Shown one piece after another: positions 2,720 through 21,423 of a stretch of 22,713 nt of DNA (the stretch's first letter is position 1; each line of letters starts with the position of its first letter). The translations under genes were made by a program, and so were the position numbers. The notes under the pieces are model-generated. The model did not search any database, had not been told where the DNA came from, and was given only the letters and a program-made list of their open reading frames with translations. This stretch comes from a virus, in the IMG/VR virus record IMGVR_UViG_3300017951_000150, positions 1-22,713 of that record; one strand, given 5' to 3'.

Positions 2720-4082
2720 TAATGTAATTTCACCTGAAGATTTTAGATTAAACAAAGTTTATATAACCGCAGATAGATTCTCTCGCGGGAAAACAATCGA
2801 TGTTACTAATATCACTATAGAATTTAATATTTATGAAAACATAAATTTACCATACTTGACAGGTTCTATCAGTTTTTTAGATGATAGCGGTTTATTTGAT
2901 GTTGCTGACTTTCAGGGAACTGAAGCTGTTACCATAGTTGTTTCACTTCCAGACCAACCAGATAATAACATAACTAAAACATTTATTTTAAATAGTATAG
3001 AAAAAACTCAACAGACAAATGATAGGTCAGCGGTTTTGATTTTTTCTATGGTGGAAGATGTTTTATTTCATAATAATGTACAAGCTGTAAGTAAAACTTA
3101 TGATGGCACAGGCGAAGAAATAATTGAAAAGATTATAAATGATAAGCTTAATAAGAAATTATACAAGGGTGAGCAGACCTTTACTAATTCATTTCAAAGC
3201 GCCTTTAGAATTATAAGTCCATATTTAAGTCCGTTTGAGATAATAAAAATGGCTTTAAATAAAATGACTACTGAAAATGGCAGTCCATATTTTCTATACT
3301 CTACGATTTACAGTAATGACTTAATTTTAGCTGATTTAGATACTATACTCAAATCGCCTTCATTTAATAAATTGCCTTATACCTATTCACAATCTAATAG
3401 CAATGATAAAAATAATGATCCTGTAACTGCAGCAAGGTCGATTTATGATATTAGTCTAGTTAATCAAGAAGACACTATGATGTTAAGTGAATTAGGAATT
3501 ATCAATTCATTTTTTGAAGCATATGATATTAGTAATGGAGATGTTTATAGCACCGACTTTAATTTAAGTCAGCTTTATGATAAGTTGTATTCAACAGGAA
3601 TTATAGACCCAAATCTTTCAACACGATTAATCGATTATAGTTTTATTCCAGATCAAACAAAAACCGATAATAGAGGTTTAGGTGACTATAGATCAAAACG
3701 ATTTAGTTTAGCAGTTGGAGCTAATACTTATCCTCTTGAATCTCAAATTAATAACTGGACTTCAGAAACTGATATATTCAGTTATATTTTGCGAATGAAT
3801 AGTTATGCTCTCAAAACCTTACTATTGAAAAATCAAGTTAAGCTATATGTACCAGGTATGAATTTTACGCATGGTGACAAGATTACATCTGTTGGCAAAA
3901 ACATAGACATATTATCTTATAAAACAAATGTGAGCATCAATATAGATAGGATGGAAAGAGATCATAAGAAATCAGGTAAGTTTTTAATTACCTCAAAAAG
4001 ACATGTTTTTAATGCTACTGAATTTAAACATAATGTTTCTCTGACTTGTTCTAGAATTTCTAATGAGAGGCCTGCCAAGTGA
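2709..4082 (+). CDS. 27: Baseplate hub protein, gp27-like
   Basis: This 457-aa protein sits directly before the gp5-type OB-fold gene and fits the gp27/VgrG-N/gpD-like hub family. In that family a trimer forms the torus that adapts the sixfold baseplate to the threefold spike. Family-like features are NITIEFNIYENINLPYLTGS leading into an early beta domain, an FILNSIEKTQ strand, IIEKIINDKLNKKL, then SPFEIIKMALNKMT followed by a Y-F-L-Y strand (about residues 175-200). The C-terminal part (VKLYVPGMNFTHGDKI, FLITSKRHVF) resembles the closing beta barrel that contacts the gp5 OB fold. T4 gp27 is 391 aa. The assignment rests on fold-like motifs and position, not strong residue identity. It overlaps the upstream gene by 11 bases and the downstream gene by 4 (GTGA). 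Confidence 0.65.
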   Translation: MSTNNVISPEDFRLNKVYITADRFSRGKTIDVTNITIEFNIYENINLPYLTGSISFLDDSGLFDVADFQGTEAVTIVVSLPDQPDNNITKTFILNSIEKTQQTNDRSAVLIFSMVEDVLFHNNVQAVSKTYDGTGEEIIEKIINDKLNKKLYKGEQTFTNSFQSAFRIISPYLSPFEIIKMALNKMTTENGSPYFLYSTIYSNDLILADLDTILKSPSFNKLPYTYSQSNSNDKNNDPVTAARSIYDISLVNQEDTMMLSELGIINSFFEAYDISNGDVYSTDFNLSQLYDKLYSTGIIDPNLSTRLIDYSFIPDQTKTDNRGLGDYRSKRFSLAVGANTYPLESQINNWTSETDIFSYILRMNSYALKTLLLKNQVKLYVPGMNFTHGDKITSVGKNIDILSYKTNVSINIDRMERDHKKSGKFLITSKRHVFNATEFKHNVSLTCSRISNERPAK

Positions 4083-4999
4083 ACTTACTCGATTATCCTT
4101 TTTATGGGGATCAGTTTAGATGGTTCCTAGGGAAAGTAATTAATAATAACGATCCTGATATGCTTGGCAGAGTTCAAGTAAGAATATCTGGCATTCATAG
4201 TAATAATCAGACTGACATTCCTGAACATACACTTCCATGGGCATCAGTATTAAATCCTGGAACAGAGGGTGGTACTTCAGGTATCGGGAAGATTCCACAA
4301 ATTTTACCAGGTGCTACAGTGTTTGGTATCTTTATAGATGGTAAACACTCACAAGTTCCATTAGTATTAGGATCAATTAATACGATTGAACGTCCTAGTT
4401 CAATTCAATCAGAACAATCAAATATTGATACAAGAAATACAGGATCTGATGGAGCTGTTGTAAGAAATGAAGTCTTAAATTCGACTAATAACAATTACAA
4501 CGTTAATGAGAGAAGATTAGTAGCTATGATATTTTTTACAGACAATGGCTATACCGCTTCTCAAGCTGCAGGCATTGTTGGCAATTTAGAAGCGGAATCT
4601 AATTTTAATAGCACAGTTGTTTCGGCTGTAGCTAATGAAAGCTCACAAGGTATAGCTCAATGGAATCCGGCTAAAGCAGCTGGTAATAGATTAAGTAAGT
4701 TAAAGGCATATGCACAAAATACAAATAGAAATTGGAGAGACTACGACCTTCAATTGCAATTTGTCTTGCATGAACTTAAAGGCCGGCCGAGAAATAATGA
4801 CGGCGGGGGAAGTTTTTCTAATGTGAATAATAAATTAATTAAGTGTACTAAATTTGACGGTGGTGTTGTACAAAACAATTCGACGTGGATTATTTGCAAA
4901 TATTATGAAATACCTGTAGACGCTGAAGGAAAATTAAGGCAAAGAGAAAATTATGCTAGAATTGCTTATAATCAATTTGTAAGTTCAGGGAGCGTGTAA
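4079..4999 (+). CDS. 5: gp5-type spike base: OB-fold domain plus tail lysozyme domain
   Basis: Residues about 10-105 form a gp5 N-terminal OB fold (WFLGKVINNNDPDMLGRVQV, LPWASVLNPG, PGATVFGIFIDGKHSQVPLV), which in T4 joins the spike to gp27. Residues about 143-300 look like a phage tail lysozyme (Phage_lysozyme2-like): VAMIFFTDNGYTASQAAGIV, GNLEAESNFNS with Glu173 (or Glu171) as likely catalytic acid, then SSQGIAQWN and LQLQFVLHEL. This differs from the T4-lysozyme-type domain inside T4 gp5. At 306 aa it lacks the beta-helix needle of T4 gp5 (575 aa), which is carried by the gene at 6566. It starts with GTG and its GTGA overlaps the stop of the hub gene, so the two are probably translationally coupled. 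Membership in gp5 is clear from the OB fold. The lysozyme family is inferred from motif order. Confidence 0.85.
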   Translation: MNLLDYPFYGDQFRWFLGKVINNNDPDMLGRVQVRISGIHSNNQTDIPEHTLPWASVLNPGTEGGTSGIGKIPQILPGATVFGIFIDGKHSQVPLVLGSINTIERPSSIQSEQSNIDTRNTGSDGAVVRNEVLNSTNNNYNVNERRLVAMIFFTDNGYTASQAAGIVGNLEAESNFNSTVVSAVANESSQGIAQWNPAKAAGNRLSKLKAYAQNTNRNWRDYDLQLQFVLHELKGRPRNNDGGGSFSNVNNKLIKCTKFDGGVVQNNSTWIICKYYEIPVDAEGKLRQRENYARIAYNQFVSSGSV

Positions 5000-5000
5000 T

Positions 5001-6566
5001 ATGGCTTTTTTGAGTGTCCAGAATGTAGTTGATAAATTAAATAATTTTACTAGAACATCAAACTTTAGTGGATCATTATCTGATTCACGTAGATTATTTG
5101 AACAGAATTTAGTTGCTAATACAAGTAAGTTTGGTAATACATTAAATCAAGAAGTTGCTGGATTTGTAAGCCTAACTAATAGTCTAGATGATATAGTTCC
5201 AGTAATTGATTATTCGATTCCTGATCAAAGTAGTGGCAATCTAGATATTGTTCAACTTACTGATGGCTTTCCAGGAGTCAAAAACAAATTAGTACAAGTA
5301 CTAGGAGGACTAACTTCTGATTTAGATTTGATAACCGGTGGATCCAATGTAGAATCTTTATTAAATATTAATATCACAAGTGGCATACCACAAGCTATAG
5401 GACAAAACTTAGCAAGTTTAGGAGTGTCAAACGGTGTTATAAAGGATGTAGTAGGAAACCTACAAAATTTAGAAAATGATTTGTTTGAAAAAATAGAAAC
5501 ATCTGCAAATGATATTTTGGGTAGTATATTAGGACCTGTCATAAATGTTTCTAACAGTATCAATAGTCTTAAAAATCAAGTATTTGATGAATTTAGTGCG
5601 TTAGCTGGTGGAATATTAGATGAAGTAGACCAGGGATTTACTTCAGTTATAGAAAATGTTGCTGAACAAATAACTGGTAATGGTAAAGAAATTATTAGAA
5701 ATACTATTACTGCCAATGGTGGCATTTTACCAGACGCCCAAACAATATCACTAGCTTTGAAATATGTAGGCCAAGGTAATAAAGAAGCAGCAGCAGAAGT
5801 TATTAGACAATCAATACCGAATATAAGGCTAGATGTTATTTTATCGGACTTAAACACAATTGACCTTAGAATTTCATCTAATCAGAATAGATTATCTACA
5901 CCTGGTGTAAGTACTTCGGTAACAAATTTAGCTGGATATGGAAATAACTGGGATGGATCTAACACAAAAGTAAAATCAGCAAAGTCTAGATCATCTACTG
6001 GTCATGCGTTCACTAATATTGCTACCCATGAAGAATTAGAGATAGAGCTTAAGAGTGTAAAAAGAGAAATAACAGAAATTATTACTCATTGGACAGAAAC
6101 GCATACTAACCAAGATATAGGCGCTGAAGAAATACAAAGAAGTAGTGGTAATATTCCTTATCATTATTTGATAAGAAGAAATGGTTCTTTACAAAGAGGC
6201 CTTCCTGTAGATTTGGTGGGTGGATCTTTAGCTAATGGTCACGAAAAGTATGCCATTCAAATTGCATTCGTCGGAGGAGTTAACTCACCAACTGGCATTG
6301 AAAACATTGAACGGTTTTTCTCAGCCGATTCATTAACAAGAAAACAAATGTCAACTTATCAAGAGTTTTTAAGAATTTCTTATTTAGCTTGGCCTGGTGT
6401 ACAAGTTATGGGACATAATGATATTGATAGAACACAACAAGATCCAGGGTTTGATGTTGTTAACTTTACAGAATTAAATTTCGGTAAAACAATAATATTT
6501 AAAGATCCTTCTTCTACTGGACCTTATTCTAGAACAGAATTGATTAAAACAAGGATACCTTATTAA
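5001..6566 (+). CDS. Baseplate hub-associated N-acetylmuramoyl-L-alanine amidase (Amidase_2/PGRP-like)
   Basis: This 521-aa protein has two parts. Residues 1-300 are unrecognised, rich in short amphipathic helices and Asn/Ser/Gly linkers, and may anchor it in the baseplate. Residues about 330-490 form an Amidase_2 domain: EITEIITHWTETH with His363, IPYHYLIRRNGSLQRGLPV with Tyr387, NGHEKYAIQIAFVGG, and VQVMGHNDIDRTQQDPGF with His472 and Asp481. By comparison with T7 lysozyme, His363 and His472 are zinc ligands and Asp481 takes the place of the Cys ligand, as in AmiD-type enzymes. The enzyme would cut the amide bond between muramic acid and the peptide stem. It lies between the OB-lysozyme gene and the needle gene, so it is probably a virion component rather than a lysis enzyme. 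AGGGAG upstream supports the ATG. Confidence 0.85.
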   Translation: MAFLSVQNVVDKLNNFTRTSNFSGSLSDSRRLFEQNLVANTSKFGNTLNQEVAGFVSLTNSLDDIVPVIDYSIPDQSSGNLDIVQLTDGFPGVKNKLVQVLGGLTSDLDLITGGSNVESLLNINITSGIPQAIGQNLASLGVSNGVIKDVVGNLQNLENDLFEKIETSANDILGSILGPVINVSNSINSLKNQVFDEFSALAGGILDEVDQGFTSVIENVAEQITGNGKEIIRNTITANGGILPDAQTISLALKYVGQGNKEAAAEVIRQSIPNIRLDVILSDLNTIDLRISSNQNRLSTPGVSTSVTNLAGYGNNWDGSNTKVKSAKSRSSTGHAFTNIATHEELEIELKSVKREITEIITHWTETHTNQDIGAEEIQRSSGNIPYHYLIRRNGSLQRGLPVDLVGGSLANGHEKYAIQIAFVGGVNSPTGIENIERFFSADSLTRKQMSTYQEFLRISYLAWPGVQVMGHNDIDRTQQDPGFDVVNFTELNFGKTIIFKDPSSTGPYSRTELIKTRIPY

Positions 6567-9136
6567 TGACTGGCGTAAATGATACCCGAGAACAAAGGAT
6601 AGCTGACTCTAAGGGTAGAGAGATTTCACAAGGCGTAAACCGTGATGGTAATCAAGATCCACGTGGAGAGTTTCCTTCTCCCCAATATTGGAACTCACCT
6701 AATACTAACTATGCCGCTACAGGCAATGTAACTAATGAGCTTTATGTTGGCGGTGGTGATAAAGAAGTTGATTTAGGTTTAGCTGATAAGAAAGCATCAC
6801 AGTATCCATATAATCAGGTCTCTGAAACTATTTCAGGACATGTAATTGAGGTTGATGATACTCCAGGTGGCGAAAGAATTCTTATTAAGCACAGAACAGG
6901 AGCTGGTGTAGAATTAAGACAAGACGGTACAGTTCTAGTAGCATCTACAAAAAACAAAATTGAAGTAACCGGAGACGATCATAATGTCATTGTTGAAGGT
7001 GATGGCAATATGGTTTATAAAGGCAATTTAAATATCCAAGTAACTGGTGAATTTAATGTAGAATGTACTGACTTTAACATTAAAACAAATGGTAATATGA
7101 ATACTAATGTCGTAGGATCTCAAAGAACTACAGTTGGTGAAACTAAATCAGATACTGTTCGTGGTGGCTTATCACAAACTGTAACTCAGCAGGTTACTAA
7201 CACATATTTGGGTGGATTATCTACAAATGTCAAAGGTACATTAAGTCATAATGTTGAAGGACCAGCTAATTATGTTTCAAGTGAAAATACTATTATGACA
7301 TCTGAAACTAAACTTAATATGTCATCTCCTGATGTAAACCTGGCCGCTGAAAATTTATCTGTGTTTGGAGACCAAGGTACAATTGGCGGTGAAAACATTA
7401 TTATGTACAACTATAACATGCATACGGGTCATTCAATTTATTCTGAAACAGTTACAACTAATCTTGTATATGGCGATTTAAAAGGTACTGCAGAAAAAGC
7501 AATAACCTCTGATGTAACTAACTCACAAAATTATGCTGACCCTGATCCAGGTGGAGGGACAGGCTCTGCAGCTGGATATACAATTGACACAACTGCAGAG
7601 GACACAAAAGCTACAGCGCTTCCAACAGGTGCATTGCTTGATGGTTATTTAAATCGTGGGGATGGTGGTGTTCGTAAGATTAAAATTGATGAAGGTGACT
7701 GGATTAAGAATCAGATTGATAAGACGGTTGCATACGATGGTATTTCTTCAACCCCTGTCTCACCAACTGTTGCTAGATCTAAGTTAAGAGACCCTTCAAA
7801 TCAAAATAATAAAACCTTTGTCTCACAAGCAACTGCTGAAGGCAATATATCACCAAACTGGAACAGGCCAACACCTGTTGGAATAGGTAGAACTGTATCT
7901 GGTGGATCAACCCCTAAATTTGGACAACAAATTTTCGGAAATGCTAGAGCTTCAGATGGTGCAAATCTATTCTTGCCTAGAAGTTTAAACGTACAGCTTG
8001 TGCCAGATCCCAGATTTAATCCTAATTTTAGAAATGAAATTACAGCTAAAACTAAGTTGAGTGAAGGTGTTTCTATATCAAAATTCATGGGTTCAAAGGG
8101 TGATCCCACAAATCTTAGTTTTATTCGTGATTTAGAGCAACGTAAACAGCTAGCTAGAAATTTATATGCTCATGCTGAATATGTCATGAAGTCTGTATCA
8201 ACAAATAAAGGTGATTTTAAAGATTTACGATTGATAGTTGCTGAGGGTGTATACAGACCTGGTCCTAGTGAAAAAATAACACCTGGTAGCATTAATGACT
8301 TAAAGCTAAAGGGACAAGCGATTGTTTATGAATTAGTTGATAACAAGGGTAAAATAGACGCTGCTAAAACATTTGACCTAGCTGAATATTGGAAAGACGC
8401 TATTTATTTTGACAAATTAATTTTAGACTATGATGAAATTGATCCGAATGAGGATCTAAACGCACAGATTATTGTAGTAATGCCAGAAATAACAGATGAC
8501 TTTTCTGCTACGTTTAATAGAAAGGTTGAAACATTTTATAATGGTAAAAAACTAGCGGATGCTGAATTAGTCGAGGCATTAACATATCCAGTTACATCTG
8601 TTCAAAGTACGATTAATATTCCATTAGATTCTGGTGGGAGATATGGTATTAATTTGTCTACAAGGTTTAAACCAATTATTGACACTTTAAATGGTACTTC
8701 TCCTAACCTAAGACCAGGCGCTTTAGAAAATATGAAGAGTATGCTTGAAAACGAATATACAAAAATGCAAGAATATTATGGTGGTAGACTTTATATTAAT
8801 GACGCGCTAGCTAAAGCTGGAACAAGTAGAACAGCTTCCACTCCGGCATCACAGCACTTTTTTGGTAGGGCACTAGACATCGATATTTCTGGAATGACAG
8901 ATTATCAAAAAATAAAACTAGCAAAGTCAGCAATGAAAGCTGGATTCAGAGGTTTTGGATTTGGTAATACAATTCTTCATGTCGATTTAGGATCAAGCCG
9001 TGGTTGGGGATACAACAATAGAATGTGGGCTGGTAAACCGGTCGGCGAGTTAATAAGAGATAACAAAGGAAATGTGATAGACATCACTAGTTATTGGAAC
9101 AGATGGGCTAGAAGATTATCACCAGAATTTGTTTAA
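6566..9136 (+). CDS. gp5C-type beta-helix needle fused to a C-terminal M15-type peptidase
   Basis: Residues about 85-320 match the gp5C/VgrG needle type: SGHVIEVDDTPGGERILIKH, LRQDGTVLVAS, then repeated short beta strands (NKIEVTGDDHNVIVEGDGN, NLNIQVTGEFNV and onward) expected to wind into a triple-stranded beta helix. A linker of about 180 residues follows. Residues about 515-645 look like an M15-type fold without zinc ligands. Residues about 715-825 look like an active Peptidase_M15_3 domain: SQHFFGRALDIDI gives H764-x6-D771, and ILHVDLG gives His805, the usual three zinc ligands of DD- or LD-carboxypeptidase-like enzymes. The protein would puncture the envelope and cut peptide stems. Its ATG shares one base with the stop of the amidase gene (TAATG). 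At 856 aa it exceeds whole T4 gp5, yet it lacks the OB and lysozyme domains. Confidence 0.85.
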   Translation: MTGVNDTREQRIADSKGREISQGVNRDGNQDPRGEFPSPQYWNSPNTNYAATGNVTNELYVGGGDKEVDLGLADKKASQYPYNQVSETISGHVIEVDDTPGGERILIKHRTGAGVELRQDGTVLVASTKNKIEVTGDDHNVIVEGDGNMVYKGNLNIQVTGEFNVECTDFNIKTNGNMNTNVVGSQRTTVGETKSDTVRGGLSQTVTQQVTNTYLGGLSTNVKGTLSHNVEGPANYVSSENTIMTSETKLNMSSPDVNLAAENLSVFGDQGTIGGENIIMYNYNMHTGHSIYSETVTTNLVYGDLKGTAEKAITSDVTNSQNYADPDPGGGTGSAAGYTIDTTAEDTKATALPTGALLDGYLNRGDGGVRKIKIDEGDWIKNQIDKTVAYDGISSTPVSPTVARSKLRDPSNQNNKTFVSQATAEGNISPNWNRPTPVGIGRTVSGGSTPKFGQQIFGNARASDGANLFLPRSLNVQLVPDPRFNPNFRNEITAKTKLSEGVSISKFMGSKGDPTNLSFIRDLEQRKQLARNLYAHAEYVMKSVSTNKGDFKDLRLIVAEGVYRPGPSEKITPGSINDLKLKGQAIVYELVDNKGKIDAAKTFDLAEYWKDAIYFDKLILDYDEIDPNEDLNAQIIVVMPEITDDFSATFNRKVETFYNGKKLADAELVEALTYPVTSVQSTINIPLDSGGRYGINLSTRFKPIIDTLNGTSPNLRPGALENMKSMLENEYTKMQEYYGGRLYINDALAKAGTSRTASTPASQHFFGRALDIDISGMTDYQKIKLAKSAMKAGFRGFGFGNTILHVDLGSSRGWGYNNRMWAGKPVGELIRDNKGNVIDITSYWNRWARRLSPEFV

Positions 9137-15094: not shown

Positions 15095-18025
15095 ATGACT
15101 AGTCAGGTAATAAAATCAACATTTGCTAGCACATACAATGATGACTATAGGGATAGTGATAACTATCATAGAATATTGTTTAATAGCGGTAGAGCTCTAC
15201 AAGCAAGAGAGCTAACGCAACTTCAAACAATCATTCAAAGTGAAGTAGAACGTCTAGGCAAATATCTATTTAAAGAAAGTTCTATTATTACCGGCAATTT
15301 GGGTTCAGCTCAAATGCGTGGGTCTGCTATTTTCTTTGCAAAGTTAAATACATCAGTTAATTCACTACCATCTAATTATGCAGAGCTAAATGGCGCATAT
15401 TTTACCAATGCTGCTGGTCTTAAAGGCATTGTGAAAAAAATTATTCCTGCAGAGAATAGTGATCCTGCAACTATTCTATATTCTATCGTAGATGGTGCTG
15501 ATGAAGAAAGAGCTGCAGATTCAACCTTATCATCAAACTTCCAATCGGGTGATAATATTACAATTGGCTCTGTCACATTAAGTATCCAAACAATTAATAC
15601 AGTTGCAAATCCAGCGTTGGGTCGCGCTTCAATTATTGATGTACCTGAGACTGAAACATTTACTGCAGGCCATTTTGTATTTACGCCAGCACAAACCTTA
15701 GTAATTGACAAATACACATCTACGCCAACTGATACACTAGTTTATAAAGTAACAGAAGATATCATCACAGCTTCTGATGATCAAGCCCTATATGACAATG
15801 CTGGATCAACCCCTAATTTGACATCTCCAGGTGCAGATCGTTATAGAATTAGATTAACATTAGATCTATTAAGTAATATTTCAGGAAATACAACTTACAT
15901 ACCTCTTATTAATATTAAAAATGGTATAACTGAGCCTTTACAATTCCCTGATTCTATTCTAAATGAATTGGGCGATTTGATAGCTCAAAGAACTTATGAC
16001 ATGCATGGTGATTTTGTTGTAAATGATCCGTTAAACAGATTCCAATTAAGCGTAGAAGCTGATAGTGATGATGATTATTTAAATTATAGAATTAATCCTG
16101 GTACTGCTTTCATAGGTGGATACAGATTTGAAAGAGAACAAACTACAACAATTCGTGTCAAAAAACCTAGAACTGCAGGAACTGACATTTACTCAGTGAC
16201 AAATGAAAACGTTACAGCTGAATATGGTAACTACTTTTTAGCCGATTCTGCGTATGGTCTTTTAGATAAAACAGATAATTTAAATACAATTAATCTATAT
16301 GACAAAAAGCATAAAGCTGCCTCTTCAACTGTTCTTGGTACGGCTCGTATTAAAAACATTGAAAAGAATGCTCAAAACAATTATAAGTTTTATATGTTTG
16401 ATATTACTATGGATTCTAATGGATCTGGAATACTTTATGACATTGCTGATACAAAATCCATTGGTGAAGATTCGTCAAACTACGCTAACTTATTAGGAAC
16501 CGAAAATAAAGTACAACTTTTAGATCCTGGTGCAAATACTAATTTATTCAAATTACCGTTTGCAAGAACGCAAGAATTAGCTGGTACAATTAACTTAACA
16601 GTTAAAGATGTTTATACTGCTACAACTAATGGAGCGGGTGAAGCAGTATTTAATACAGCGGCCGCCGATGAAGATTTTGCAGATGAAAGTGAATGGTTAC
16701 TTTCATACGATAGTGATGGTGAAATTCTATCTACTTTTAATATAGCATCTGGTGGAGCAGGTAATACATCTGTTACTATTGATGGTTTGAATGCGTCTAA
16801 AGGTGTTAAATTATTGTGCTATGTAAACACATCTGCTACTATTATACCTAAATCAGAATTAACAAAAACTGAATCTTTATCTATTGTTAATAATGTTTTA
16901 ACTCTTACCGAACCAGATTTTACTTTATTAACGAGTGTAGTTGATGATAATACTAGTGAAGATATTACTTACAAATTTACTATAAGCCAAGGGTCAAATG
17001 ATAATGGTAATTTCTATCAGCCTACTAAGCTGAAATTATCTGGTGGATTTACTGCCCCGTCTGGTACAGTAACTGTAGTATACAAATATTTGTCCTCATC
17101 AGCTTCTGGTGATTTTTATGGTGTGAATTCATATAACTCTATTTCTTATAGTTCTATTCCCAGAGTAGGAAGAGCATCAGGTGCGACAAGTTTAGCTGAT
17201 GTATTAGATTTTAGATCTGTTAAAAATTCTAGTGGTGGATGGGATAGAATTGTAAGAGTACCAAGGAATAGAGACATAGTTACTATTGGTACAGCTAACT
17301 ATTTTTCTGGTAGAAGTGACCTAATTTATATGAATAGTAAAGGCTTTATCGATAAAAAATTAGGTAATGCCGGAACAAAACCTGTAAAAAGACCAGAATT
17401 AATACCATACACGCTGCCATTGCACTATGTTGATTTAGCAGCTTATACATACAATGTTGATGATTTAACTAGGGTTGGTATTAATCAATCTAGTTATAAA
17501 ATGTCTGATATTAGAAGATTAGAGAATAGAATTAACAATGTTGAGTATTTGACTTCTTTAACAATTAGTGAATTGAATTTAAGCTCATTGAGCGTTATAG
17601 ATGAAAATGGTTTAGAAAGAACTAAAGTTGGTATTTTCGCTGATAACTTTAGAGAGCAGGATAAATCTTTAGTTGCTGAAAATTTTGATTATAGAGCAGC
17701 AGCGCAAAAATCAGCTGGTTTATTAAGACCCCGTGCTTTGAAAAAACAGCTGGAAATGTACTATGATTCAGATCAATCTAGTGGTGTTGTTAGAAAAGGT
17801 GCTACTGTATGGCCAAAATATGATGAAGAAGTGTTTATTTCACAGACAATAGCAAGTAATCCAATAAATGTCAATCAAACACAATTGAGTGTATTTAATG
17901 GTTCACTGCAACTTACGCCTGATGGCGATACTTGGACTGAAGAAAGAACCCTCGACGGAAATAATGAAACAATAGCTATTCATGGGGATTTATCACAATA
18001 TGATGAATCACCAAAAGAATATTAA
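15095..18025 (+). CDS. DUF4815-type baseplate/tail-fibre structural protein
   Basis: The N-terminus has the DUF4815 hallmark of marine T4-like phages: DSDNYHRILFNSGRALQARE followed by LTQLQTIIQSEVERLG and LFKESSIITGNLG (about 20-75). A long beta-rich middle follows, including FVVNDPLNRFQLSVEADSDD and INPGTAFIGGYRFEREQTTT. Near the C-terminus a helical block (about 803-891) contains MSDIRRLENRINNVEYLTSL and NGLERTKVGIFADNF, which in relatives reads as 'LE.RI..LEYYTSL...GLDRFKNG...DNF'. This is a structural protein of the baseplate periphery, perhaps doing the job of T4 gp9-gp12 in holding fibres; the exact role is unknown. At 976 aa it ends where I recall longer homologues continuing into domains found here in the next two genes. 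An AGGAT ribosome-binding site precedes the ATG. Confidence 0.75.
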   Translation: MTSQVIKSTFASTYNDDYRDSDNYHRILFNSGRALQARELTQLQTIIQSEVERLGKYLFKESSIITGNLGSAQMRGSAIFFAKLNTSVNSLPSNYAELNGAYFTNAAGLKGIVKKIIPAENSDPATILYSIVDGADEERAADSTLSSNFQSGDNITIGSVTLSIQTINTVANPALGRASIIDVPETETFTAGHFVFTPAQTLVIDKYTSTPTDTLVYKVTEDIITASDDQALYDNAGSTPNLTSPGADRYRIRLTLDLLSNISGNTTYIPLINIKNGITEPLQFPDSILNELGDLIAQRTYDMHGDFVVNDPLNRFQLSVEADSDDDYLNYRINPGTAFIGGYRFEREQTTTIRVKKPRTAGTDIYSVTNENVTAEYGNYFLADSAYGLLDKTDNLNTINLYDKKHKAASSTVLGTARIKNIEKNAQNNYKFYMFDITMDSNGSGILYDIADTKSIGEDSSNYANLLGTENKVQLLDPGANTNLFKLPFARTQELAGTINLTVKDVYTATTNGAGEAVFNTAAADEDFADESEWLLSYDSDGEILSTFNIASGGAGNTSVTIDGLNASKGVKLLCYVNTSATIIPKSELTKTESLSIVNNVLTLTEPDFTLLTSVVDDNTSEDITYKFTISQGSNDNGNFYQPTKLKLSGGFTAPSGTVTVVYKYLSSSASGDFYGVNSYNSISYSSIPRVGRASGATSLADVLDFRSVKNSSGGWDRIVRVPRNRDIVTIGTANYFSGRSDLIYMNSKGFIDKKLGNAGTKPVKRPELIPYTLPLHYVDLAAYTYNVDDLTRVGINQSSYKMSDIRRLENRINNVEYLTSLTISELNLSSLSVIDENGLERTKVGIFADNFREQDKSLVAENFDYRAAAQKSAGLLRPRALKKQLEMYYDSDQSSGVVRKGATVWPKYDEEVFISQTIASNPINVNQTQLSVFNGSLQLTPDGDTWTEERTLDGNNETIAIHGDLSQYDESPKEY

Positions 18026-18036
18026 GGGAGTAGCCT

Positions 18037-19740
18037 ATGGGTTATGTAACACGAACAGGAACTGAAACGTACACTTATTATGTGACAAAATCAAGACGTG
18101 TTTTCACTGGCTTTGAAGATGCAACTAGGGCTAGAGCCAAGTTTATTTTCTTTAAGTGTGAGGGATTAACGCCAAACACAAGACATTTCTTTTTCTTTGA
18201 TAATAAAAATGTGACTAATTATGTTAGTACTGACTCAGTAAACGCACCTGATGATTATTACACATTACCAAGAAATAGCCCAAAAAGAAGTCCAGGTAAA
18301 AGATTTGCATCCGAGACTGGCTTCCCGACAGAATTTGGTGGTCCAACGTCTGAAATTTATTCAGATGATGAAGGTAAAATTGAAGGTCTATTTTATTTAC
18401 AAAGTAATAATAACTTTTATTTCCCAACAGGAACCAGAACATTTACTGCTATAGACATTAGTGTTTTAGATTTAGATAATGCAATTTCTAAATCACAGCA
18501 ACAGTTTATTATTGACGGTGGTATTGAACGCTATAAAATGGAATATTATTCAGTTAGAAGAACTGGTACTAGAAGTTATACATACCAAGAATATGTACCA
18601 GATCCACCCGATCCACCTGTTGGGGGTGGCGAAACTGGTACTGGAGGATCAGGTACCATAGTTTGCCATGGACCTGGATCTGGAGCAGAATGTTTCATTG
18701 CTGGAACACAAATTTCTATGTACGATGGTACTTATAAAAACATAGAAGATATTGCAGTTGGCGATGAAGTAATAGGATGGGATGCTGATAATCAAATTCA
18801 AAAAAATACAGTACTAAATGTTCATGATATAGTACCGCAGAAGCAAAAATTATGTACTATTAATAATCATATTACTTCAACGGACAGTCATTTATATTTA
18901 AGTAAACGTGGTTGGGTTTCAGTAAATCCAGAAAAATCTAAAGAAATTTATAGTGATTATAATTTAGACATCAGCGAAATGCAAATTGGTGATGAACTTT
19001 ATACTATGGGACTAGACGACGGTAAAGGTGGTACTTTTGATACGATAGTTGTAGATTCAATTGAAACTAATGACGAAGATGTAAAGGTTTATAATTTTAC
19101 TGTAGATAATACTAGTAGTTACATTGCAAATAATTTTGTTGTCCACAATAAATCATTAAAAGAACCAGATCCAGAACCATCGGGGCCTTCTGTAGTGCAG
19201 GTAGATGGACCATTTGACCCCGATGATTTTGCGGGTGGGGATTCTTCTCCATCATCGTCGTCTGTTATTGACGATGGACCTTTAGGTAACCGTAACGATA
19301 GCATAGTTGATGAAATGGTAGTCGGCGCTGTGGCTGGTGCGCTCATTGCTGGAACAGCTGCAGCTGCGACGGGTGCGGGGATAGGGGCAGCTATAGGTGC
19401 AGTGTTGGCGTGTTGCTTTATCATGTTAGAGGCACGTTATGGTGACGGCACAATGGATAAAGTTGTAAGACGATATCGCGATGAAAAAATGACAGATAGG
19501 AATAGACGTGGTTATTATAAAGTAGCAGAAGTACTAGTACCTATGATGCGCAAATCTAAATTTGCTAAGTGGTTGGTAACAAAAACTTTTGCAGATCCAC
19601 TTGTATGTTATGGTAAATGGTATTATGGTGAAAATAAATATGGTTGGATATTTAAACCTGTTGAAAAATTCTGGATGTGGGTATTTGAAACTGTAGGTGG
19701 CGAAGTAGAATTCATCAGAGCAAATGGTGAAGTAGTTTAA
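18037..19740 (+). CDS. Tail protein with an internal Hint (intein-like) domain and glycine-zipper C-terminal region
   Basis: The 567-aa protein has four parts. Residues about 20-185 form a beta domain (FFKCEGLTPNTRHFFFFDNK, EGLFYLQSNNNFYFPTGTRT) of a type that I recall following the DUF4815 region in related phages. A Pro/Gly linker (187-217) leads to a Hint domain at 219-371. A second acidic Pro/Ser linker (about 373-425) leads to a C-terminal module: a Gly/Ala-rich hydrophobic segment (about 427-463) and a basic, aromatic domain (RYGDGTMDKVVRRYRDEKMT onward). The Hint domain has no homing endonuclease. The Hint could cleave or splice the protein and separate the C-terminal module; this is inference. 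AAGGGAG precedes the ATG. The gene sits between two tail genes with gaps of 11 and 12 bases and is probably expressed with them. Confidence 0.8.
   Translation: MGYVTRTGTETYTYYVTKSRRVFTGFEDATRARAKFIFFKCEGLTPNTRHFFFFDNKNVTNYVSTDSVNAPDDYYTLPRNSPKRSPGKRFASETGFPTEFGGPTSEIYSDDEGKIEGLFYLQSNNNFYFPTGTRTFTAIDISVLDLDNAISKSQQQFIIDGGIERYKMEYYSVRRTGTRSYTYQEYVPDPPDPPVGGGETGTGGSGTIVCHGPGSGAECFIAGTQISMYDGTYKNIEDIAVGDEVIGWDADNQIQKNTVLNVHDIVPQKQKLCTINNHITSTDSHLYLSKRGWVSVNPEKSKEIYSDYNLDISEMQIGDELYTMGLDDGKGGTFDTIVVDSIETNDEDVKVYNFTVDNTSSYIANNFVVHNKSLKEPDPEPSGPSVVQVDGPFDPDDFAGGDSSPSSSSVIDDGPLGNRNDSIVDEMVVGAVAGALIAGTAAAATGAGIGAAIGAVLACCFIMLEARYGDGTMDKVVRRYRDEKMTDRNRRGYYKVAEVLVPMMRKSKFAKWLVTKTFADPLVCYGKWYYGENKYGWIFKPVEKFWMWVFETVGGEVEFIRANGEVV
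18691..19149 (+). other. Hint/bacterial-intein-like domain (residues 219-371)
   Basis: Intein block A is ECFIAGTQISMYDGTYKNIE with nucleophile Cys219 and the following VGDEVIGWD strand. Block B is HITSTDSHLYLSKRGWVSV with Thr282 and His285. Block F is VKVYNFTVDNTSSYIANNF, where the usual His is Ser. Block G is VVHN, with His370-Asn371. The next residue is Lys372, not Cys, Ser or Thr. This fits a bacterial-intein-like (A-type BIL) or cleaving Hint domain better than a classical splicing intein. At 153 residues there is no room for an endonuclease. Confidence 0.85.
19315..19425 (+). other. Predicted glycine-zipper membrane segment in a GC-rich patch
   Basis: Residues about 427-463 are uninterrupted Gly/Ala/Val/Ile/Leu with closely spaced glycines at 430, 434, 439, 446, 448, 450 and 454, ending ACCFIML. 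This length and spacing suit one or two membrane-inserting helices packed by glycine zippers. The DNA is unusually GC-rich for the window: 42 of 60 bases at 19321-19380 are G or C. Confidence 0.6.
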
Positions 19741-19752
19741 TAGGAAAAGATA

Positions 19753-21423
19753 ATGGTTCAAACATTAGATCTAACTCAAATAATTAACCCTTTAGCACAA
19801 ACTATTAGGGTTACTGAACCTGGTGGTGTTACAATCACTGGAATAGGATTATTTTTCTATTCTAAGCCTCCATCAGATTCACCTAATTTGCCAGTGACTT
19901 TAGAGGTAAGACCAGTAACAGAGGGTGGTCTACCCTCTAGTTACAATCGTTATCCAGGTACTATTTCAACTAAAGCTCGTGCTGACATTACAGCTCAAAC
20001 GGAATTTGATGCTGCAACAGGTGAAACTAAATTTGATTTTGAAGTTCCATTATATGTGCCAGAAAACACTGAAATTGCTTTAGTAGTTCATACAAATGCA
20101 GCTGCAGGTGAATATCAAATTTGGGCTGGTGATTTGGGTGAATTTGAATATGGTACCACTGAAAAACGTATCACCAAACAACCTTATGTCGGCTCATTCT
20201 TTGCTTCTTCAAACGGTACAACTTGGTCTGCATTACAAACTAGAGATATTGCCTTTAAAGTTTATAAAGCTAAATTTAGAACAATTAATAATGACGCAGT
20301 GTTTTTCGCTGATGTTCCGCCACCAGAACAACTGAGTTATAGTTCGGCATTGAAAAATCCATTATTCTTTACAGCAGGCGATAGCGATGTAAAGGTAATT
20401 CATGGTGCCCATGGATTGCAAAATGGGGATACCATAAAATTAACTGGTCTAGATTCTGCAACAGAATATGGCGGGGTTTTCGGCCGTAGTTTATTGGGCA
20501 AAAGAACAATTAAAAATGTAGATCCGTTTGGTTATACAATCACAGCAGATTCTGCAGCTGATTCTGATGTTAGAAGTGGTGGTAATGATATTTTCGCAAC
20601 TGGACAAATGCCTTTTGACAGATTTAAATTAATATCACCAGCTGAAATACCAGAAAATTCTGAAATTATTGCAGAACTTGATTATCGTACACATAAACAA
20701 TTTGGCAATAATGCTACTAAATATACTTCTGGCCCTAAATCTTCGTTTGTTATTAATGAGTGGCAGGACCCAACTCAAACTGGTGTTATAATGAATGAAT
20801 TCCAGGAGTCAGATTATTCTGTTACAGAAGGAAGTTTAAAAGCTACAATTAATTTAAAAACAGAAAATCAAAATGTAGCTCCTTATGTTAACGCAAATTT
20901 GATGCAGTTTTATGCTCTTCACAACTTAATTGATAACTCGCAGCCAGCCAGTGCATTTGCTGGAGCAGACGGGTATGATTCTAATGGAGCTGATGGTTAT
21001 AACATGGTTCATACTATTCCGTTTATAGCTGAAACTGAATCAGGTTTAGGATCTGCAACAGCACGCCATGTTACTAAAGTGATTTCGTTGAGTGCAAAAG
21101 CTACATCAATTAAAGCATTTATTGACTGCCTGAGACCAGTCGGTTCTGGTTTTGAAATGTATTATAGAACAGCTAATAGTAGTGAAATAGATTTACCAAT
21201 CGGCGCTAGAAATTGGGTTAAATTCAGCACAAACAATTCTACAGCAAATAGGTCAAACTATGAAGATTTGGGTGCATTAGGAAGAAATGACTATAGAGAA
21301 TACTACTTCTCTCAGTTTGATTTGCCCGACTTTGATTTAGTTCAACTAAAAATAACAATGTACAGTGAAAATACTCAAAAAGTCCCACTGTTCAAAAACT
21401 TAAGAGTATTGTCGACAATTTAA
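19753..21423 (+). CDS. Tail/baseplate structural protein with a domain recalled from the C-terminal half of long DUF4815-type proteins
   Basis: The N-terminus (NPLAQTIRVTEPGGVTITGI, GLFFYSKPPSDSPNLPVTLEVRPV) is a beta domain that I recall as '(V/D)PLAQ.F......G.F.T..D.YF..K......V...IR.V..G.P' in marine T4-like phages, typically as the downstream part of a longer protein. It continues with YVPENTEIALVVHTN, YQIWAGDLGEF and a beta-rich region up to residue 556 that ends in FDLPDFDLVQLKITMYSENT and a short strand. This suggests a carbohydrate-binding-like or jelly-roll arrangement at the baseplate edge, but the function is unknown. There is no signal peptide or membrane segment. It lies 12 bases after the Hint gene, with AGGAAAAG before the ATG, and one base before the small coiled-coil gene. 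Confidence 0.6.
   Translation: MVQTLDLTQIINPLAQTIRVTEPGGVTITGIGLFFYSKPPSDSPNLPVTLEVRPVTEGGLPSSYNRYPGTISTKARADITAQTEFDAATGETKFDFEVPLYVPENTEIALVVHTNAAAGEYQIWAGDLGEFEYGTTEKRITKQPYVGSFFASSNGTTWSALQTRDIAFKVYKAKFRTINNDAVFFADVPPPEQLSYSSALKNPLFFTAGDSDVKVIHGAHGLQNGDTIKLTGLDSATEYGGVFGRSLLGKRTIKNVDPFGYTITADSAADSDVRSGGNDIFATGQMPFDRFKLISPAEIPENSEIIAELDYRTHKQFGNNATKYTSGPKSSFVINEWQDPTQTGVIMNEFQESDYSVTEGSLKATINLKTENQNVAPYVNANLMQFYALHNLIDNSQPASAFAGADGYDSNGADGYNMVHTIPFIAETESGLGSATARHVTKVISLSAKATSIKAFIDCLRPVGSGFEMYYRTANSSEIDLPIGARNWVKFSTNNSTANRSNYEDLGALGRNDYREYYFSQFDLPDFDLVQLKITMYSENTQKVPLFKNLRVLSTI

Follow-up and report, generated by a model that had tools for sequence, protein, structure and literature searches.

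A Hint domain followed directly by lysine interrupts a tail protein encoded in the 22,713-nt viral stretch analysed here (hereafter the window), and comparison of its relatives indicates that lysine at this +1 position is a conserved family trait, neither an oddity nor a decayed +1 residue. This conserved lysine suggests a self-processing step, either cutting or amine-ligating, in tail assembly. We consider it probable that residues 219-371 of the 567-aa protein form an active, type-A-BIL-like Hint that processes the tail protein post-translationally, leaving its flanks joined or cleaved.

The intact open reading frame (18037..19740; this and all window features below lie on the + strand) encodes, in order, an N domain, a linker, the Hint, a second linker, a Gly-zipper and a C-terminal module. 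The N domain (residues ~1-190, 18037..18606) is homologous to the central part of a longer, fused tail protein (phrog_358 positions 1205-1397; Phage C48C1 WJE88068), and gave no convincing PDB match by sequence search. It runs into a hypervariable Pro/Gly linker (residues 191-218, 18607..18690) whose last residue, Glu218, is the -1 position of the Hint domain (residues 219-371, 18691..19149). Behind the Hint come Lys372, a second hypervariable linker (residues 373-427, 19153..19317) with a conserved VIDDGPLGNRNDS region at its end, a Gly-zipper, membrane-type segment (residues 428-458, 19318..19410) that has weak PF05433 matches and is aligned in relatives, and a 109-aa CCFIMLEARYGDGTMD module (19411..19737). 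Downstream of the Hint, Pfam returned weak Gly-zipper matches only and no toxin domain; searched with Pfam at the sequence level, the whole protein had no ubiquitin-family match, and the N domain matches a phage tail protein. From its gene order and homology, we infer that the 567-aa protein is part of the virion tail.

Within the Hint, the block A nucleophile for thioester formation is Cys219 (18691..18693; Cys is first in 113 of 118 viral relatives), block B T-x-x-H is supplied by Thr282 and His285 (18880..18891; alignment columns T65 and H68 are invariant), and the block G pair for Asn cyclisation is His370-Asn371 (19144..19149; invariant among 66 aligned sequences). Lys372 (19150..19152) is the +1 residue, and the block F position where many relatives have His is Ser. 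The reading frame and all of these residues lie where the initial annotation had put them, and its reading that the residues for thioester formation and Asn cyclisation are intact while a classical +1 nucleophile is missing stands. All Hint-bearing close homologues keep both the Cys219 equivalent and His-Asn.

The same annotation called the domain a Hint inside a tail protein, which profile matches in Pfam and NCBIfam and an AlphaFold2 fold bear out. Several Hint-superfamily Pfam models match the 567-aa protein, each slightly below its cut-off (PF08517, 1.5e-7; PF05203, 2.8e-6; PF01079, 5e-5; PF07591, the PT-HINT model, 1.4e-4, at 22.5 bits against a cut-off of 27.7), and some relatives (L031, L012) pass the PF07591 cut-off. 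The NCBIfam model TIGR01443 (intein_Cterm) scores 19.0 bits, above its own cut-off of 15.6. In a single-sequence search the top PDB match is 2lwy, a BIL domain. The AlphaFold2 model of the Hint, built from an alignment of 66 relatives, reaches a pLDDT of 90.7 and a pTM of 0.87, and a fold search with it gave 51 PDB matches at E<=0.001, the matches listed being BIL, intein and Hedgehog structures. Shuffling the protein 20,000 times reproduces the residue spacing taken alone in 33 cases, and the Hint observation is well above chance. We also noted that the top Pfam match, PF08517, is the Ataxin-1/HBP1 AXH family, that many relatives exceed its cut-off (for example 3.7e-23 in the viral contig L154), and that ataxin-1 structures are among the matches of the Hint family profile.

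To describe the +1 position across the family, we used Hints gathered by searches seeded with the 567-aa protein's own domain, 118 different ones from viruses and 63 from genome contigs of bacteria or archaea. Over 94 clusters at 55 percent identity, Lys at +1 has a weight of 51.8, and the information there is 1.56 bits as against at most 0.62 bits at every other position from five before to eight after. Roughly 40 percent of family members carry another residue at +1, Lys and Arg are both absent there from a quarter of the raw sequences, and Cys, Ser or Thr are in the minority (11 of 118 viral Hints). Where a single residue follows His-Asn, it is Lys in 19 of 19 proteins. The clusters are not independent, since the Lys label changes 23 times on the tree compared with 50 in shuffles, and by this measure Lys at +1 is partly shared by descent.

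This preference sets the family apart from PT-HINT domains (PF07591, polymorphic toxins), which belong to the same superfamily, have mostly Asn at block F position 4 and share the HN end. In 26 PT-HINT controls, found with the Pfam model in ~630 genomes read on both strands, the +1 residue is A, S, C, T, D, G or R, with Lys in only one (Fisher p 8e-7 against the Hint family), and that one is itself a member of the HN-K Hint family. As a possible source of the lysine, we considered the host's own insertion-site residue and rejected it. At a second site occupied by family members, in front of a conserved DPLAQTF segment, 79 Hint-less copies carry Lys or Arg immediately before the segment in just 8 cases (Tyr 15, Gly 11, Val 7, Lys 4, Arg 4), in linkers that are poly-Pro, poly-Gly or otherwise variable. 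The residue before DPLAQTF is thus variable without a Hint and K/R with one, so that the basic residue comes with the Hint. Ser373 at +2 was rejected as a substitute nucleophile, +2 being an unconserved position (Ser in 6.6 of 84, weighted).

The catalytic residues persist in a domain that otherwise diverges. Cys1, T-x-x-H, His-Asn and Lys are kept while the remaining Hint sequence drops to ~55 percent identity. Between the 567-aa frame and its counterparts in two viral contigs of the same architecture, Hint included (L002, L003), dN is 0.10 in the N domain, ~0.38 in the Hint and 0.75-0.97 in the linkers, with dS ~1.5-1.9 (1.5-1.6 in the Hint), close to saturation. The L002 and L003 proteins have identical Hints and N domains that are 98 percent identical, and their linkers are only half alike. 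By these comparisons, the Hint is under purifying selection within hypervariable linkers. A Hint reduced to a spacer, inert or decaying around relic catalytic residues, would agree with its location in such linkers, its dispensability in relatives, its missing block F His and an activity that is so far a prediction; the retention of every catalytic residue and of Lys through this divergence, a dN far under dS, and the failure to find Lys at the corresponding place in seven relatives that lost His-Asn all argue against it, and we regard it as improbable. The initial annotation had counted the missing block F His towards its prediction of cleavage; it is not diagnostic, as this His is absent from relatives too, L002 having Asn there. 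Position 4 of block F is Asn in the domain, as in 2lwy and most of the PT-HINT controls, and Asp stands there in only 3 of 118 viral Hints, all three with Cys or Ser at +1. The absent block F His and the Glu at -1 could slow the Hint reactions.

Among known systems, the nearest homologue by both fold and profile is BIL2 of Tetrahymena thermophila BUBL1 (6tmm, 6y75; fold E 5e-9, TM 0.75; family profile 1e-22). In the fold list it is followed by the Mtu RecA intein and the type A BIL of Clostridium thermocellum (2lwy), with Hedgehog (1at0) lower at 2e-6; by family profile, BIL2 and 2lwy (8e-19) both rank well ahead of all inteins. The kinship to BILs that the initial annotation proposed is therefore what profile and fold searches recover. 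Like the phage domain, BIL2 sits between two independently folded domains, and its upstream domain is reportedly joined to the epsilon amine of a lysine (PMC8616854). Unlike it, BIL2 is eukaryotic, flanked by ubiquitin-like domains and activated by zinc, whereas the phage Hint lies in a tail protein that has no ubiquitin-family match in Pfam and has Lys directly at +1; BIL2's own +1 residue is not readable from the solved constructs. With type A BILs such as 2lwy the domain shares the Hint fold, Cys1, T-x-x-H, Asn at block F position 4, a C-terminal His-Asn, the absence of a required +1 Cys, Ser or Thr, and a non-conserved, hypervariable host region. It departs from the type A BILs described in the strong family preference for Lys at +1, in hosts of phage virion type, in tandem arrays and in one-residue (Lys) tails. 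The fold of Hedgehog Hog-Hint is similar and its N-terminal thioester chemistry may be too, but the phage Hint keeps a C-terminal His-Asn and has a module behind it.

With class 1 mini-inteins (Mtu RecA, Npu DnaB, gp41-1) the domain shares the fold and motifs A, B and G, and the remaining class 1 motifs are all present. Splicing that uses a thiol or hydroxyl side chain at +1 is nonetheless very improbable: the +1 residue is Lys, which excludes this route barring an unprecedented one, Ser at +2 is not a substitute, there is no homing endonuclease, and the insertion is in a hypervariable linker and not at a conserved enzyme site (compare PMC2814812). By +1 residue, site and lack of an endonuclease, the tail protein was also rejected as a normal intein host. 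On the features compared, the phage Hint is neither a class 1 intein, two of whose features it fails, nor a PT-HINT by the Pfam cut-off.

The window as a whole is a myovirus baseplate gene cluster, in which the Hint lies between the tail domain and the Gly-zipper and C-terminal module, the location given in the initial annotation. Of the annotated relatives found, Phage C48C1 is the nearest, and there one protein (WJE88068, 1661 aa) is the counterpart of three reading frames in the window: an upstream DUF4815 tail protein of 976 aa (15095..18025), whose equivalent in other phages is the N-terminal portion of the fusion; the N domain of the 567-aa protein; and a downstream tail protein of 556 aa (19753..21423), which starts near NPLAQTI and whose equivalent in other phages is the C-terminal portion. 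DUF4815 proteins have a solved relative, 9euf. The middle gene of this split tail protein has gained the Hint, the Gly-zipper segment and the 109-aa C-terminal module. Another tail protein of the same phage is in pieces: the reading frames 4079-4999 and 6566-9136 match different parts of phrog_430 (baseplate hub/tail lysozyme), with a frame of 521 aa between them.

Five viral contigs with the same gene order (L049/L457, L050/L458, L051/L454, L053/L456 and L455) lack the Hint and encode a single chain of 414-430 aa that comprises both the N domain and the C-terminal module, so the Hint is an optional insert in the linker and, as their reading frames indicate, the N domain and module stay covalently joined where it is absent in the lineage. 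Separation of the tail domain from the module, which the initial annotation had foreseen as the outcome of C-terminal cleavage, is therefore not required in this lineage. A Hint that only cleaves would give Hint-plus and Hint-minus phages different mature proteins, and one that ligates would give both the same build; the joined flanks of the Hint-less relatives thus favour ligation in a suggestive way, short of proof.

How a lysine could serve in ligation is indicated by described BILs. Type A BILs, with a His-Asn end and no +1 nucleophile, can splice when the freed amino group attacks the N-terminal thioester (PMC4031507; also PMC5874633), and BIL2 reportedly attaches its upstream domain to other proteins in an ATP-free way and makes isopeptide bonds of the K(epsilon)-C-terminal kind (PMC8616854), so Lys at +1 does not exclude ligation. 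The earlier statement that the domain cannot accept a normal splice accordingly holds for the class 1 route and fails for type A BILs, which can still join their flanks (PMC4031507). Likewise, its prediction of cleavage or BIL-type processing in place of classical splicing was right as to type, with cleavage only part of what such domains do, since type A BILs are able to splice without a +1 nucleophile.

In the route we propose, Cys219, aided by Thr282 and His285, would convert the Glu218-Cys219 bond to a thioester. Asn371 with His370 would then cyclise and release the C-terminal part with Lys372 as its new amino terminus. In the third and least certain step, Lys372 would use its alpha amine, or its epsilon amine as BIL2 reportedly does with lysine, to capture the N domain from the thioester, leaving the N domain joined to the Gly-zipper and C-terminal module, with the Hint gone. 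The conserved lysine would, on this inference, be the acceptor amine for the Cys219 thioester; it could alternatively promote cyclisation of Asn or keep the C-terminal strand in place. Were water to win at the thioester, the result would be cleavage, with N domain, Hint and module as separate chains. If the domain is active, ligation and cleavage each stand close to an even chance of being the main product, and transfer to another molecule is improbable.

A BIL that only cleaves, its thioester hydrolysed and Asn371 cyclised, would leave N domain, Hint and membrane-type module apart and make Lys372 merely a good leaving-side residue. Assayed BILs mostly cleave (PMC4031507, PMC7664689), and separated chains are evidently tolerated at other boundaries, because the same tail protein is already split into genes in this lineage; in one viral contig (L167) the Hint closes a gene at HNK-stop and the next domain opens the next gene. 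We hold this reading to be possible, if somewhat unlikely, as it sits poorly with the joined flanks of the five Hint-less relatives and leaves unexplained why a sole residue after His-Asn is always Lys.

Related Hints recur at various domain boundaries of this one baseplate-region protein, often at gene splits, in the contigs compared. Three viral contigs (L153, L163, L189) have one, two or four Hints between an N-domain homologue and the DPLAQTF segment, a further one (L174) has its Hint or Hints at the same boundary with a short spacer added, and the last Hint there ends HN-(K/R)-DPLAQTF. In two more (L167, L149) a Hint closes the DUF4815 gene and the N-domain homologue opens the next. The most elaborate case is L153 (3001-4908), where four tandem Hints with single lysines between them, Hint-K-Hint-K-Hint-K-Hint-K-DPLAQTF, lie in one tail protein. 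L154 (3001-4176) has two Hints, and the last of them runs straight into an intramolecular chaperone domain, Peptidase_S74, at HN-K-SDARLKRN. In bacterial contigs (L209, L213, L222, L226, L229, L231, L265) the same Hint stands at the protein end with HNK last or nearly last, and some of these proteins carry RHS repeats or FGE-sulfatase domains.

Hints at the extreme C-terminus of many relatives would suit a Hedgehog-like or trans reaction, in which the Cys219 thioester passes the N domain to a sugar, a lipid or a lysine on a neighbouring baseplate protein, and the C-terminal reaction plays a secondary part. BIL2's conjugation of its upstream domain to other proteins (PMC8616854) is a precedent, and the C-terminal Hint of Achromobacter phage JWF has no His-Asn end. 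Even so, HN-K at the C-terminus would not persist if the N-terminal reaction alone mattered, and a conserved module follows the Hint in the 567-aa protein; we judge such transfer decidedly improbable as the main activity. The JWF protein (L207, 3077-4528), from an isolated phage, is tail-fibre-like, and CNCDCNCNCSC precedes its Hint. Isolated phages are otherwise nearly empty of close Hint relatives: the Hint of contig L019 had zero matches among 50,697 phage records, and that of L153 gave only intein-like or fragmentary matches in phage records.

Returning to amine ligation by the conserved lysine, its bearing is on a question BILs pose in general, namely what stands in for the missing +1 nucleophile. 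If Lys at +1 is the acyl acceptor, the family would provide a large natural stock of new chemistry for peptide or isopeptide ligation without Cys, Ser or Thr, and the constant final Lys of many Hint proteins would be explained. A bolder and rather unlikely extension is that HN-K Hints are self-contained, ATP-free amine ligases whose +1 Lys is the dedicated acceptor for the Cys1 thioester and which stitch adjoining domains, or different chains, of phage baseplates together by an isopeptide or peptide bond. Similarly doubtful is that this reading carries over to bacterial surface proteins, and that it would amount to ubiquitin-like conjugation in virion assembly without E1-E2-E3. What distinguishes the family from described BILs is its lysine, its tandem arrays and its hosts in phage baseplates. 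The open-access literature, our scope as distinct from subscription journals, yielded no account of a tail baseplate protein that matures by splicing or ligating itself, and on BIL or Hint domains in tail baseplates it holds annotation lines only, the original subscription BIL papers, which possibly report Lys at +1, lying outside that scope.

The CCFIMLEARYGDGTMD module has a wide distribution of its own. It is predicted to be all-helical, and its predicted fold had no match in the PDB. Phages carry it very often (a single scan confirmed 164 relatives, of which the best 80 were retained), and it sits C-terminally on unrelated proteins behind Gly/Ser-rich or Gly-zipper linkers, and all three members tested match the NCBIfam model CFI_box_CTERM (NF041770) weakly, at best with E 0.012. 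In Roseobacter phage CRP-13, for example, gp55 (L005, 4704-8330) is a 1208-aa protein with the module behind a serine run, encoded between the portal and coat genes of a 55-kb genome.
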